Below are positions 1 to 42,111 of a stretch of 42,111 nucleotides of DNA, in pieces. Position 1 is the stretch's first letter. Every line of letters begins with the position of its first letter. The DNA is from a virus: positions 1 through 42,111 of IMG/VR virus record IMGVR_UViG_3300035670_000481; one strand, 5' to 3'. Position numbers and translations under genes: made by a program. The notes below the pieces were generated by a model. It worked only from the letters and a program-made list of their open reading frames with translations, made no database searches and was not told the DNA's origin.

Positions 1-76
1 GGTATTTCGCGACCTTGCGGGAGGGCTAGCGTGAGAAAAAACAAACCGCCCTACTGAGAACGGTTCGCAATAAGAC
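1..76 (+). promoter_or_regulatory. Left end and putative leader/promoter of the late operon
   Basis: The first 13 nt equal the last 13 nt of the window. TAGCGT at 27-32, in the context GGCTAGCGTGAG, matches a gCTANNNT box found ahead of most other plus-strand units, so it may be the -10 element for the packaging genes. A GTG at 31 opens only eight codons before a stop, so I do not call a gene here. No clear -35 element or strong ribosome site is visible. Confidence 0.4.
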
Positions 77-1854: not shown

Positions 1855-3724
1855 CGAGCTGCTGCAGGTCTGCCGCGATGCGCTGCGGTTCGAGGCTGAT
1901 CTGACGGTGAGCCAGTGGGCTGATGCGCATCGGGTGTTATCCGGCAAGGCCAGCGCTGAGCCGGGACCGTGGCGGACGGACCGCACGCCGTACCTCAAGG
2001 AGGTGATGGACTGTCTGAGCACGACAAGCTCGGTGCAGCGGGTGGTGCTGATGGCTGGCGCGCAGCTGGGCAAGACAGAGGGCGGCGCCAACTGGCTGGG
2101 CTATGTGATCGACCACGCGCCGGGGCCGATGCTGATGGTGCAGCCGACCGTGGACATGGCAAAGCGGCTGAGCAAGCAGCGGCTGGAGAGCCTGATCACC
2201 GAGACGCCATGCCTGCGGGACAAGATCGCGCCAGCGCGCAGCCGGGACTCGGGGAACACGATGTTCTCCAAGGAGTATCCGGGCGGAATCATGATTTTGA
2301 CCGGGGCAAACTCGGCCACCGGCCTGCGATCAACGCCGTGCCGCTACATCTTCCTTGATGAGGTGGACGCCTTTCCTGGCGACGTGGACGGCGAGGGCGA
2401 CCCGGTAACGCTGGCGGAACGGCGGAGCACCACGTTCAGCCGGCGGAAGATCTTCATGACCTCCACGCCGACGGTGAAGGACTTCTCGCGGATTGAGGCG
2501 GAGTACCTGCTGAGCGACCAGCGGCGCTACTTCGTGCCATGCCCGTGCTGTGGCGCGATGCAGTGGCTGAAGTGGCCGCAGCTGAAATACCAGGACAACG
2601 AACCGAGCACGGTGCGCTACGAGTGTGAGGCTTGTTGCGAACGATTCTCAGAAAGCCACAAGACACGGATGCTGACGGCGGGCGAATGGCGCGCGACAGC
2701 ACCCGGCGACGGCAAGACTGCAGGGTTCCACATCTCATCGCTCTACAGCCCGCTGGGTTGGAAAAGCTGGGAAGAGGTGGTTGAGGACTTCCTGCGCTCC
2801 AAGGGTGATGCACCGCGGCTGAAGACGTGGGTCAACACGGTGCTCGGCGAGACCTGGGAGGAGGACTACGCCAGCAAGGTGAGCGCAGATGCGCTGCTCG
2901 AGCGCTGTGAGCCCTACCTGGCCGGCAAGCTCCCTGAGGCGGTGCTCACGGTCACGATCGGCGTGGACGTGCAGGGTGGTGGCGGCTCAGCCGGTGATCG
3001 CCTGGCGGTGAGCGTGTGGGGCTGGGGCCGCGGCGAGGAGGGCTGGCTGATCGACCACCAGGAGATCGCGGGCGACCCGTGTCAGGCGGAGGTGTGGAAG
3101 CAGCTTGATCTGCTGGTGCTGCACGAGTGGGAGCACGCCGGTGGCGGCAAGCTGCGGGCGGAAGTGACATGCGTGGACTCCGGCGGCCACGCGACGGCGG
3201 AGGTGTACCAGTACGCGCGGGAGCGCGCTGGTGTGGGCGTGATCGCGATCAAGGGTCAGAGCCAGCGTGGCAAGCCGCCGATCGGCAAGCCGGGCAAGGT
3301 GGACATCAACGCCAAGGGGCAGACGCTGAAGCGCGGCGCGCAGGTGTGGCCGGTGGGTGGCGACACGATCAAGACCACGCTGTTCGGGCGGCTGAAGCAC
3401 AACGAACCCGGCGAGGGTTACCTGCACTTTCATGCGCAGACGGGTGGGGAGTATTTCGAGCAGCTGACGGCTGAGAAGCAGGCGCTGCGGTACGTGAAGG
3501 GATTTCCCGTGAGGGAATGGGTGAAGAAGCCAAGCGCACGGAACGAGGCGTTGGACTGCCTGGTCTACGCCTATGCGGGATTAAATCGGCTCTATTCGCG
3601 GTATGACCGCAGAACAATCTGGGATCAGCTGGAAGCAAGGCTGCAGAAGGCAGCTGATGGTGGCAGCAAGCCGCAGCTAAGATCGGGCAAGGGCAAAGCG
3701 CCTTCGTTCGCTACCAGCTGGTGA
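1838..3724 (+). CDS. Terminase large subunit, GpA family
   Basis: ATP-driven DNA packaging motor and nuclease that cuts concatemers at the packaging site. The 628-residue length fits the lambda gpA family. The ATPase carries Walker A GAQLGKT (74-80) and Walker B FLDEVD (172-177). A cysteine cluster (C235, C237, C238, C263, C266, C267) looks like a zinc-binding insert between the ATPase and nuclease halves. GVDVQ and CVDSGG segments in the C-terminal half fit the RNase H-like nuclease core. The start is GTG, preceded by GGAGG at 1824-1828 with about 9 nt spacing. The GpA family, rather than the TerL_3 or P22 type, suggests cohesive-end packaging. Confidence 0.95.
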   Translation: MPSAIDELLQVCRDALRFEADLTVSQWADAHRVLSGKASAEPGPWRTDRTPYLKEVMDCLSTTSSVQRVVLMAGAQLGKTEGGANWLGYVIDHAPGPMLMVQPTVDMAKRLSKQRLESLITETPCLRDKIAPARSRDSGNTMFSKEYPGGIMILTGANSATGLRSTPCRYIFLDEVDAFPGDVDGEGDPVTLAERRSTTFSRRKIFMTSTPTVKDFSRIEAEYLLSDQRRYFVPCPCCGAMQWLKWPQLKYQDNEPSTVRYECEACCERFSESHKTRMLTAGEWRATAPGDGKTAGFHISSLYSPLGWKSWEEVVEDFLRSKGDAPRLKTWVNTVLGETWEEDYASKVSADALLERCEPYLAGKLPEAVLTVTIGVDVQGGGGSAGDRLAVSVWGWGRGEEGWLIDHQEIAGDPCQAEVWKQLDLLVLHEWEHAGGGKLRAEVTCVDSGGHATAEVYQYARERAGVGVIAIKGQSQRGKPPIGKPGKVDINAKGQTLKRGAQVWPVGGDTIKTTLFGRLKHNEPGEGYLHFHAQTGGEYFEQLTAEKQALRYVKGFPVREWVKKPSARNEALDCLVYAYAGLNRLYSRYDRRTIWDQLEARLQKAADGGSKPQLRSGKGKAPSFATSW

Positions 3725-37557: not shown

Positions 37558-37946
37558 TCGTGGCGAACCCCGAGACCGACCTGCAACAGCGCATCCGTCT
37601 CGCGCTCGGCACGCATCCCGATGCCAGACTTTTTCGCAACCAGGTCGGATCGCTCCCTGATCCACGCAACGGCCGCCTTGTCACCTTCGGCCTCGCCCGC
37701 GGTTCCGCTGACCTGATCGGCTGGCGCACCCTAGTGGTGACCCCTGAGATGGTCGGCCAGCGCATTGCCGTGTTCACCAGCCTCGAGGTGAAGACAGCCA
37801 CAGGTCGCCTCTCGCCTGCACAGACCCAATGGCTCCATGCCGTCCGTACCGCCGGTGGCATCGCTGGCGTGGCGCGCAGCGTGCCGGATGCCTTGCGAAT
37901 TGTCACAGAGCCCGTCCAACCGTCTAACCCTCCCGGCAACATCTGA
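37554..37946 (+). CDS. VRR-NUC domain nuclease
   Basis: Structure-specific endonuclease of the VRR-NUC group, possibly resolving branched replication or recombination DNA. The 130-residue protein has the core LFRNQVGSLPDPRNGRLVTFGLARGSADLIGW, with Asp53, and FTSLEVKTATGRLSPAQTQWL, where Glu78-x-Lys80 and Gln90/Gln92 form the expected motif. Such small VRR-NUC proteins usually sit beside phage helicase and primase genes, as here. The ATG overlaps the helicase stop by 4 nt. The C-terminal codons contain one copy of the iteron-like repeat. Confidence 0.92.
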   Translation: MIVANPETDLQQRIRLALGTHPDARLFRNQVGSLPDPRNGRLVTFGLARGSADLIGWRTLVVTPEMVGQRIAVFTSLEVKTATGRLSPAQTQWLHAVRTAGGIAGVARSVPDALRIVTEPVQPSNPPGNI

Positions 37947-37966: not shown

Positions 37967-40066
37967 ATGTCGCTGATCGATCAGCTCGCCCTTCTTCCCG
38001 ATGACTGGGGCTATGTCGCCGTAGGCCAAGGCAAGCGTCCCTACCAGCCCGGCTGGCAGAAGAACCCCCTCACCAAGCAGCAGCTCACCGCCGAGATCAC
38101 CGCAGGCCGTGCCGTCGCCATCGGCGTGATCGCCGGGCCGCAGTCCGGTGGTCTCCTCTTCGTTGATCACGACGGGATCTCAGCCGGTGAGATCCTCGAC
38201 AAGCTCGGTGTACCGCTCCGCGACCTGCCGAAGTCCTGGGCAGTCACATCAGGCCGCAACGGCCGCCTGCAGATCATCTACCGCGTCCCCGAGCAGTTCT
38301 GGTCGGACATCTCAACCCGGAAGTTCAAGACCGGGAAGTTCGATGAGGAGGGCAAGCCCGAACAGCTCGAGCTCCGCTGGTCCGGCTGCCAGTCCGTCGT
38401 CGCAGGCGCTCATCCCATCACCGGCGCCTACCGCTGGTTGAAGGGCCGCGAACCGGGCCGCCTACCGCTGGCTGAGGCGCCCCTTGCGCTGATCGAGCAG
38501 ATGCTGCCCCAGCAGCCACCGGAACCGCAGCCGATCCTTCCACCGCCTCCCCCACGGCAAACGGATCGCACCGATGAAGACTGGGCGCGCATCTGGCTCG
38601 ATGCTCTCAGCCCCTCGCGCGCTGAGGACTACGACTACTGGATCGAAGTCGGCCAGTGCCTGCAGAGCGTCGGTGATCACATGCTTGCCGACTGGGATGC
38701 CTGGTCACGGCAATCCGCCAAATGGGAGGCAGGCGCCTGCGACTACCACTGGCGCACCTTCTCACCTGACGGCAAGCGCGACATCCGCCACCTCTGCAAC
38801 CTCGCCAAGGAGGACGGCTGGCAACCAAAGCAGCGCCAGCTGCCGCCTGTGCCCACCACCAAGGCCGCACCGCCTGCAAGGCAGCAGCAGCAACCGCAGC
38901 AGGCCGCTCCGATCGTGGACAAGCCCCACAAGCTCGAGGCCAAGGAGCTCCTCAACATGCTCCGCGTGCCAGACAAGAACAAGCTGCCGCGCTTTCGGTA
39001 CAACGTCTTCACGCAGCAGATCGAGATCTACGGCAACGTGGCAGAAGGTGCCGAACGCTTTTACCTTCAGCTCTCAGAAGAGGGCTACAAAGTATCGAAA
39101 GAAATGGCACTGGACTGCCTCGTTCAGGTAGCCCGCGAAAACCCATACGATCCCGTCAAGCTATACCTCGAGCACGTCGCTGCTCAGGTTCAACCGACCT
39201 ACATCGACCGATTGGCATCCACCTATCTGCGGCCGATTGATGCCGATCTAAATGAGCCAACCCTCTACGATGCGATGCTCAAGAAGACGCTGATCGGTGC
39301 AGTTCGGCGCATCTTTCAACCCGGCTGCAAGCACGATTACGCCTGCGTCCTGATGGGTGATCAAGGCGCTCGAAAGTCATCCTTCTGGGCCGCATTGGGT
39401 GGTCCGTTCTTCTCTGATGCACTGCGTGACATCAGCTCAAAAGATGACCTGATGGTGCTGCATCGCAGCTGGCTGATGGAGTGGGCAGAGCTCGATCACA
39501 TCACCAACAAGAAGCACGCAGGGCAGGTGAAGGCCTTCCTTTCGCAGTCCACCGACATGTTCCGCGTGCCCTACGGCAAGGCCACAGAGGCCTTCCCGCG
39601 CCGCTGCATCATCGTGGGCTCTACCAACCGCGACAGCGGCTTTTTGGTCGATGAGACCGGCAACAGGCGCTTCTGGGTGATCCCGGTCACCTGCACCCTC
39701 GCCAAGCCGATCGACGTGCCAAACCTCCTGCTGGAGCGGGACGCCATCTGGAGCGCCGCTGTGGCCGCCTACAAGGCCGGCGAGGGCAATGACCTCAAGG
39801 CCGAGCAGCACGCAGCGGTGGAAGCCGAGAACGAGAGCTATCTGGTCAGCAACCCGTGGCTCAACGCCGTGGAGCAATACCTGGCACGTCGCCCATCCGT
39901 CGATCCGCTCACATCGGAGGAGATCCTGCTGCAAGCCATCCAGAAGCCGCTGGAGCGCCAGACCCGCGCAGACCAGATGCAGGTGGCCTCAATTCTCAAG
40001 GATCTCGGATGGGTCAAGAAGCGAGAGCCGAAAGGCCGCCGCAGGTGGATCTACAGCCGCCCATGA
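37967..40066 (+). CDS. Primase-polymerase with PriCT-2 and VapE-like ATPase domains
   Basis: Probably the initiator/primase-helicase of phage replication. In the 699-residue protein, residues 1-170 are a Prim-Pol domain (bifunctional primase-polymerase) with the metal-binding pair in LLFVDHDG (Asp67, Asp69). Residues 203-286 match PriCT-2 (DEDWARIWLDALSPSRAEDYDYWIEVGQCL..., RTFSPDGKRDIRHLCNLA). A Pro/Gln linker follows, then a VapE-like P-loop domain with GDQGARKS (464-471), EWAELD (505-510) and the later GSTNRDSGFLVDETGNRRFW block. No DNA polymerase is visible, so host polymerase is probably used. The ATG at 37967 lies 20 nt after the previous stop. Confidence 0.92.
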   Translation: MSLIDQLALLPDDWGYVAVGQGKRPYQPGWQKNPLTKQQLTAEITAGRAVAIGVIAGPQSGGLLFVDHDGISAGEILDKLGVPLRDLPKSWAVTSGRNGRLQIIYRVPEQFWSDISTRKFKTGKFDEEGKPEQLELRWSGCQSVVAGAHPITGAYRWLKGREPGRLPLAEAPLALIEQMLPQQPPEPQPILPPPPPRQTDRTDEDWARIWLDALSPSRAEDYDYWIEVGQCLQSVGDHMLADWDAWSRQSAKWEAGACDYHWRTFSPDGKRDIRHLCNLAKEDGWQPKQRQLPPVPTTKAAPPARQQQQPQQAAPIVDKPHKLEAKELLNMLRVPDKNKLPRFRYNVFTQQIEIYGNVAEGAERFYLQLSEEGYKVSKEMALDCLVQVARENPYDPVKLYLEHVAAQVQPTYIDRLASTYLRPIDADLNEPTLYDAMLKKTLIGAVRRIFQPGCKHDYACVLMGDQGARKSSFWAALGGPFFSDALRDISSKDDLMVLHRSWLMEWAELDHITNKKHAGQVKAFLSQSTDMFRVPYGKATEAFPRRCIIVGSTNRDSGFLVDETGNRRFWVIPVTCTLAKPIDVPNLLLERDAIWSAAVAAYKAGEGNDLKAEQHAAVEAENESYLVSNPWLNAVEQYLARRPSVDPLTSEEILLQAIQKPLERQTRADQMQVASILKDLGWVKKREPKGRRRWIYSRP

Positions 40067-40356
40067 GGGCAGGTTGGACGGGTCAGACGGCGAAACTTAT
40101 TGCAAACACTGGATTTTGTGCTCGTCCAACCCGTCTGACGTCCGACTTCGCCTATAGGAGTTACCCGCGTGTCCCCTACCCCTCCCCTACCTACCTATTT
40201 ATTTATACTCTTTTAGAGAGGTTAGGAGGTTAGACGGTTAGGAAAAGCCTTGTGCTGCAGTGGATCTCCCGTCCTAACGGGGTAAATCGAGGTTGGACGG
40301 GCTGAAAACAGGCGCAACGCACTGGAAGTGCTACGGTTGAACGGTTGCACACCGTT
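40067..40356 (+). repeat. Iteron-like repeat region, candidate replication origin
   Basis: No gene is seen in this gap. Units related to GGTTrGACGG occur in tandem or inverted form at 40072-40090, 40123-40140 (inverse), 40220-40242, 40268-40278 (inverse), 40291-40301 and 40335-40348. Further copies lie within coding DNA at 37911-37930 and 40628-40640. An A/T-rich stretch (about 40195-40218, ATTTATTTATACTCTTTTAG) sits inside, as in origins. TACGGT at 40332-40337 may be a promoter box for the next gene. Iterons next to an initiator-like Prim-Pol gene fit an origin; operator function is the alternative. Confidence 0.55.
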
Positions 40357-41010
40357 ATGGCCACATCCGCATCGCAGCCCTACATCGCCAAGCTCGGTTT
40401 CCAAGACCGCGACCGCAGCAGCTACCGCCACGGCCTTGCCTGTGAGTACCTTTTCGAGCGTCTTCTGGAGCTGGAGGTGGCGCCGTTCACTTATGACTGC
40501 CAATGCGCAGAGCTGCAGAGGGCAATCGACTATCGATCGCAGTCTATTGAGCAAGGCTATTCATTCTTCGGAGACGCGCTCGATGAATTAACACAGCAAC
40601 TGCCAGGCTTAACAGCAGAGTTTCAACGGTTGACGGTTGATTCTGTCTTGGCCGAACTCCGTGGCTCGTGCAAGGTCGGAGAATGTCTTAACGTGCCGAT
40701 CACTTCGCGCTCTTACGTCAACGGGTTTGCCGACATACTCATCACAAAGAAAAACACTAATGGCCGTGACGTTGCCGGCTGGCTTGGCGAAGTGAAAATC
40801 ACCAAGGAGCCAGCTGAAAACGTTTTGCAGCAGATCAATTTCTACTTGAGTTATCTACCTCACGTTCATTCGGTCTACCTATTGACTGACTACGATCCGT
40901 CTGATCTGCAGCGCTTGTGCGCCGGCACCAAGATCAAGGTCTTTCGACTCGGCCAACGCTTCGAGCAATGGCTCAGCAATCGCCCCTCGCACGCCACTAA
41001 CGAACTCTGA
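40357..41010 (+). CDS. PD-(D/E)XK nuclease-like protein of unknown role
   Basis: The 217-residue protein carries a motif pattern of the PD-(D/E)XK fold in its second half: GFADILI (Asp126), GEVKITK (Glu145-x-Lys147) and NVLQQINFYLSYL (Gln158/159), with a helical first half (residues 1-110). This layout resembles Cas4-, RecB- or restriction-type nucleases, but no specific family is clear to me. The codons from about 40540 to 40900 are distinctly richer in A/T than the neighbours, suggesting transfer. A TTG at 40345 would add four residues. It is followed by an overlapping ribbon-helix-helix gene, perhaps its regulator. Confidence 0.6.
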   Translation: MATSASQPYIAKLGFQDRDRSSYRHGLACEYLFERLLELEVAPFTYDCQCAELQRAIDYRSQSIEQGYSFFGDALDELTQQLPGLTAEFQRLTVDSVLAELRGSCKVGECLNVPITSRSYVNGFADILITKKNTNGRDVAGWLGEVKITKEPAENVLQQINFYLSYLPHVHSVYLLTDYDPSDLQRLCAGTKIKVFRLGQRFEQWLSNRPSHATNEL

Positions 41011-42098: not shown

Positions 42099-42111
42099 GG
42101 TATTTCGCGAC
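42099..42111 (+). other. 13-nt terminal direct repeat matching positions 1-13
   Basis: GGTATTTCGCGAC at the right end equals the first 13 nt. Two explanations fit: filled-in 5' cohesive ends of a cos phage, or a short assembly overlap of a circularly mapped genome. Lambda overhangs are 12 nt, so 13 nt is a credible size. Terminase type and neighbouring repeats favour cos. Confidence 0.5.

Follow-up and report, generated by a model that had tools for sequence, protein, structure and literature searches.

The replication origins of SaPI and PICI elements are the closest described counterparts of the locus reported here. The C-terminal domain of the SaPI Rep protein acts on iterons situated immediately 3' of the rep gene (PMC7581432), and in PICI origins two iteron sets flank an A/T-rich region, a plan that was reported in 2018 to be unique to PICIs (PMC6092414). 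The initiators of these elements (SaPIbov1 Rep, SaPI5 PriRep1) are helicases whose C-terminal domain confers origin specificity (PMC6092414, PMC7581432), and a counterpart is proposed for the phage genome considered here, where the putative origin likewise lies directly 3' of the initiator gene. In pRN1 ORF904 and Bordetella phage BIP-1, an AEP primase, an SF3 helicase and a winged helix are also combined and the origin is located behind the gene, but there the origin was proposed to be a long stem-loop, with iterons discounted (PMC4234260), whereas tandem opposed iterons are conserved here and only short imperfect inverted repeats are seen in the gap, compared with the conserved stem-loop of ~100 nt of the pRN1 type. 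The DNA-binding domain and iterons of the RepA/ori pair of the Vibrio cholerae PLE swap as a module (PMC8263062), as in the present case, although the PLE initiator is of the RepA_N type, its iterons are ~30 bp long and its DNA-binding domain is not C-terminal. In SCCmec, the D5-family helicase Cch2 has a C-terminal domain that, in isolation, binds direct repeats lying behind the cch2 gene (PMC7581432). This system differs in having a separate primase-polymerase and only three 5-nt iterons.

The alpha protein of phage P4, a primase, helicase and origin binder with a C-terminal winged helix and two separated iteron sites (ori and crr), provides another parallel, as does the origin of Streptococcus thermophilus phage Sfi21. 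The P4 iteron sequence is, however, unrelated, and the second site in the present genome adjoins the initiator start codon.

The array behind the Prim-Pol gene

The window, that is, the whole stretch of 42,111 nt that was analysed, constitutes the complete IMG/VR virus record IMGVR_UViG_3300035670_000481 and has a GC content of ~63%. Tail-fibre, minor-tail, lysozyme and terminase-type genes are encoded on it, with TerS and TerL assigned by position and a weak DUF1441 match. Unlike SaPI/PICI elements, which are helper-dependent satellites with no virion genes of their own, the window is a full tailed-phage genome whose initiator includes a PF09250-type AEP Prim-Pol; the two have only the type of origin in common. 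A ParB_N domain fused to an N6/N4 DNA methylase is encoded at 77-1339, adjoining the DUF1441 (TerS-like) gene. To the left of the Prim-Pol gene lie SF2 helicase and VRR-NUC genes and, further left on the minus strand, ExoVIII/RecT. Among cultured phages, Synechococcus phage S-LBS1 (MG271909) is the closest, and a Cyanobium contig encodes a protein 51% identical to the Prim-Pol, suggesting that a picocyanobacterium is the likely host. The features of the locus are as follows.

37912-37929, minus strand: two tandem iterons directly upstream of the initiator gene, a probable autoregulatory operator, kept near the Prim-Pol start and of the iteron type of its own locus
37967-40066, plus strand: Prim-Pol, PriCT_2 and VapE-type SF3 helicase of 699 aa (PF09250, PF08707, PF05272), the proposed initiator, with PriRep1 (7pds) as best solved relative
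39812-40063, plus strand: part coding for the C-terminal winged helix (residues ~616-699), proposed to bind iterons (two models, iteron tracking, AU tests)
40072-40090, plus strand: iteron pair A, directly 3' of the initiator stop codon (units read in the sequence)
40122-40148, minus strand: core iteron set 1, three units pointing out of the core (motif count, core alignment)
40149-40166, no strand: conserved box, reading GGTAACTCCTATAGGCGA on the minus strand (alignment of 44 cores)
40172-40196, no strand: strand-biased tract, C-rich on the plus and G-rich on the minus strand (sequence, core alignment)
40197-40217, no strand: A/T-rich block, the proposed melting site (core alignment, GC scan)
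40220-40243, plus strand: core iteron set 2, three units with an 8-bp period (sequence, motif count, core alignment)
40269-40278, minus strand: outer iteron D, kept in relatives L006-L009 and the form I relatives
40291-40300, plus strand: outer iteron E (motif count, relatives)

The initiator is related to PriRep1 (7pds), a member of the Rep/Pri-Rep helicases, in both sequence (phmmer E 6.5e-28) and structure (Foldseek E 2.1e-11), and a whole-protein fold search returned PriRep1 of SaPI5 first, followed by pRN1 ORF904 and the NrS-1 Prim-Pol. Two AlphaFold2 models display a helix-helix-helix-strand-strand succession at residues 632-697, which is the winged-helix pattern. When the C-terminal domain alone was searched by fold, no single match was significant (best E 0.07), the top ones being winged-helix-containing proteins only.

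The earlier note had described units related to GGTTRGACGG, in direct and inverted form, through the gap that follows this gene, and the motif count against shuffled controls confirms the array. With at most one mismatch the motif occurs ten times in the window, against 3.6 +/- 1.6 times in shuffles, none of 100 of which reached ten, and eight of the ten matches fall at 37912-37929 and 40072-40344. The densest 300 bp contain six matches at this threshold (no more than two in 40 shuffles) and nine when two mismatches are allowed (no more than five in 40 shuffles). This clustering, together with the conservation described below, rules out a chance origin of the array. The array begins within 6 bp of the initiator stop codon, and units can be read directly at 40072, 40081, 40220, 40228, 40236 and 40291 on the plus strand and at 40122, 40131, 40139 and 40269 on the minus strand, as well as at 37912 and 37920 (minus strand) in the upstream pair. 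All of the gap sites originally listed were thus retained except 40335-40348, where the alignment with the 98%-identical L006 stops at 40337 and the sequence of L009 differs. The two clusters noted within coding DNA fared differently from one another: that at 37911-37930 is conserved and forms part of the system, probably as an operator at the initiator's own promoter, whereas that at 40628-40640 is not kept in L009, which has the same downstream gene. Sites 40335-40348 and 40628-40640 are probably chance occurrences. The A/T-rich block reported among the units was substantiated, with a 30-bp GC minimum of 23% that is matched by only 0.024% of the 30-mers of the genome. A pseudo-palindromic element (ATCCnnTGCnnTGCAnTGG-like) is found on both sides of the core, at 40089-40115 and 40244-40268, and is kept in relatives. 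A search for structured RNA gave no Rfam match.

Conservation, covariation and exchange among relatives

The same kind of array is located immediately 3' of the Prim-Pol/VapE gene in all 80 relatives fetched by Prim-Pol protein and in S-LBS1, so that the array which the earlier note proposed to seek in related phages is present throughout. Position and layout are kept; the exact sequence is not. An alignment of 44 non-redundant cores gives, in one direction, an outer pseudo-palindrome (ATCC..TGC..TGCA.GG), three outward iterons, a T/A block with ..AAAAGAGTA.., a G-rich tract, the box GGTAACTCCTATAGGCGAA and three iterons pointing outward in the other direction. The iterons are of 8-9 bp, with a constant core and a variable tail, and form two opposed sets of about three, flanking the A/T-rich region as in the PICI plan. 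L041 is a divergent exception, whose core is not alignable over its whole length. In form II loci a short palindrome occurs 3' of the right iterons (e.g. GGCC-gtggat-GGCC or CCCC-tggat-GGGG), the stems of which seem to co-vary.

In one lineage the core has been turned round as a whole: its orientation relative to the gene in the window, L006-L009 and L045-L085 is opposite to that in L010-L044 and S-LBS1. When reverse-complemented, the window gap aligned locally with 11 form II gaps at scores of 30-87, against shuffle maxima of 24-33, while forward alignment remained at chance level; the match is clear in nine or ten of the 11 and marginal for L034 and L019. A core that functions in either orientation fits better with an origin than with a terminator or promoter. 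This invertibility, along with the extra iteron pair before the gene, distinguishes the window type from SaPI/PICI origins. In L006 the array remains behind the initiator gene although the downstream gene has been replaced. Past 40337 this relative, with a 98%-identical Prim-Pol and array, continues into an unrelated gene, forming a sharp recombination edge. In the last ~370 bases of the S-LBS1 record (MG271909; L086), a 127-bp iteron-bearing piece is repeated 254 bp apart at the record end, representing either an assembly overlap or a doubled origin flank.

The iteron unit differs between groups, being GGTTRGACG in the window group, GGTTGGCAA or GGTCGGCA in L010-L032, GGTAGGAA in L033-L039 and GGTTGGGCA in S-LBS1. 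Within one locus the left and right sets resemble each other more closely than when permuted (0.362 vs 0.211, p=1e-4; shared ancestry is not fully removed in this and the other permutation tests). Corrected for whole-protein distance, iteron distance tracks only residues ~600-699 of the initiator (partial r 0.35-0.57; elsewhere <=0.10). Among the form I relatives, spacer and iterons follow the C-terminal domain to a similar degree (r 0.58-0.68), so that part of the covariation in this group is attributable to linkage. Linkage as the sole cause is ruled out for form II loci, where the iteron-domain correlation persists after control for spacer distance (r=0.43, p=5e-4) and no such relation to the domain is seen for the spacer (r=0.10, p=0.19).

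The initiators of the window and of the form II relative L010 share 68-98% identity, block by block, over residues 1-600, but 48-57% over the last 100, while the last 50 residues of the window protein are 76-84% identical to those of L045, L047 and L052, with a global identity near 62%. In AU tests the grouping derived from the N-terminal part is rejected by the C-terminal data (p=9.5e-5), as is the C-terminal grouping by the N-terminal data (p=0.002), the trees showing that the predicted winged-helix domain and the iterons were exchanged together. Since the repeat sequence and one end of the replication protein change together across ~80 relatives, the two appear to behave like lock and key. 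Almost no variation is seen in the putative recognition helix (ERQTRADQMQVASIL), and it is the wing that changes from one iteron type to another, which suggests that the GGT core, being constant, may be read by the helix and the variable tail by the wing.

The upstream pair, ~2 kb from the array, matches the iteron type of its own downstream array (p=2e-4) and switches type along with it among relatives. Adjacency alone does not explain this agreement, as 2 kb of unexchanged N-terminal coding DNA lies in between. The pair is missing in L033-L039. It is rather likely that the pair autoregulates the initiator gene; no sigma-70 promoter was found by consensus upstream of Prim-Pol, and this role is accordingly proposed from position and conservation.

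The origin reading and its rivals

The gap at 40068-40337 is very probably a cyanophage replication origin served by an iteron-binding initiator, and a self-loading SF3-initiator origin of the SaPI/PICI type is the best reading of the sequence data. It is supported by the conserved position and layout, the coupling of the iterons to the C-terminal winged helix and the match to the published SaPI/PICI plan, and the earlier suggestion of an origin layout composed of iterons, an initiator-type protein and A/T-rich DNA is upheld on the same grounds. The Prim-Pol/VapE protein would bind the 8-9 bp iterons through its C-terminal winged helix, and the two opposed sets would place a pair of SF3 helicase rings in head-to-head arrangement over the A/T-rich block, and this block would be melted. 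The fused Prim-Pol domain could then prime both forks, which would proceed bidirectionally, and binding to the two iterons before its own gene would allow the initiator to limit its own synthesis.

An initiator that binds the array purely for autoregulation or copy control, with replication starting elsewhere, is very improbable. The regulatory appearance of the upstream pair would suit it, as would the GC skew: the earlier note had anticipated a switch near 40.2 kb, and one was found in the region, but the best switch in the window lies at 41.65-41.85 kb, 1.5-1.7 kb from the array, between it and the genome end and near the cos end. On circularised maps the cumulative skew minimum falls 0.3-1.6 kb from the array in the window, G002, G003 and G006, in three of which the maximum is about half a genome away; no minimum at the array was seen in G005, G011 and G012. 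Bidirectional replication from the array would agree with this skew, which is nonetheless not decisive. Against a regulatory role only, the opposed sets flank a site that ranks among the most A/T-rich in the genome, and the same layout has a published replication function in SaPI/PICI (PMC6092414, PMC7581432).

Equally improbable is an operator array for a phage repressor, such as a ribbon-helix-helix (RHH) protein, an alternative which the earlier note had raised and which is weakened here. Short tandem repeats are indeed targets of RHH proteins, some relatives at 60% identity have RHH-like genes flanking Prim-Pol, and the upstream pair precedes a gene. The RHH protein mentioned in the earlier note was, however, not found with PF01402 in the window, nor was this family detected in G001-G006, all of which carry the array. 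The variation moreover follows the C-terminal domain of the initiator, the array stays behind the initiator gene whatever gene comes next, and opposed sets around an A/T-rich melt region correspond to no operator plan. A phage-plasmid partition centromere, although centromeres are likewise short tandem arrays, is extremely unlikely given that no ParA-type ATPase (PF13614) was found in the window or four relatives, that no RHH partner (PF01402) was found and that the array is tied to the initiator gene.

The sequence GGTATTTCGCGAC is present at both ends of the window (1-13 and 42099-42111). A homologous site (GGGTnnTTCGCGCG, with GGGTCCTTCC before it) marks, to within 2 nt, the end of about ten other contigs; 13-nt repeats (GGTTGTTCGCGCA) are found at the ends of G006, and the circular G003 contains a single internal copy. 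The end repeat probably represents a cos site whose cohesive end is 13 nt long, located ~1.9 kb from the proposed origin.

Spread of the layout

A pattern-blind count of opposed 7-mers with no tandem requirement proved too noisy for the GC-rich window (2 of 60 shuffles reached it) and was replaced by a motif-free score for opposed tandem chains of 7-mers, with at least five units within 350 bp behind the gene. This layout was found in 21 of 43 near relatives, 12 of 18 cultured elements with a VapE initiator (one a satellite) and 24 of 47 loci in bacterial genomes. The corresponding frequencies were 0/172, 1/72 and 1/188 in shuffles and 1/86, 0/36 and 8/92 in windows inside genes. Clear cases by eye are Marinobacter PS3, Pseudomonas vB_Pae_U5, APSE-1, Corynebacterium IME1320_01 and Paenibacillus Bob; Burkholderia Mica, Xanthomonas FoX5 and Bacteroides BU183P1 do not count among the clear cases.

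A tentative generalisation, held with slightly more doubt than confidence, is that an opposed-iteron origin, a VapE-type SF3 initiator, an exchangeable winged helix and an autoregulatory outpost constitute a general module of tailed phages and prophages in many bacterial phyla, with PICIs as one borrower, and that exchange of the domain with its iterons would let related phages avoid cross-recognition or origin-targeting defences. Origins of this general kind were already known; what is added is the setting in whole phages, a core that can be inverted, the outpost and documented co-exchange. A plan described as confined to PICIs (PMC6092414) is extended to many whole phages, and a candidate origin and initiator pair is defined for widespread, mostly uncultured cyanosiphoviruses, with S-LBS1 as cultured representative. 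Iteron types occur in nature paired with winged-helix variants, and this series provides a data set on change in the DNA specificity of initiators.

Tyrosine integrases are present in G002 and G003 and absent from the window, the L006 contig and G006; temperate and non-integrating members may thus have a common origin type. The 73-kb contig of L043 (G014) carries two Prim-Pol genes, at 3145 and 49529, and represents either two joined phages or a double initiator.
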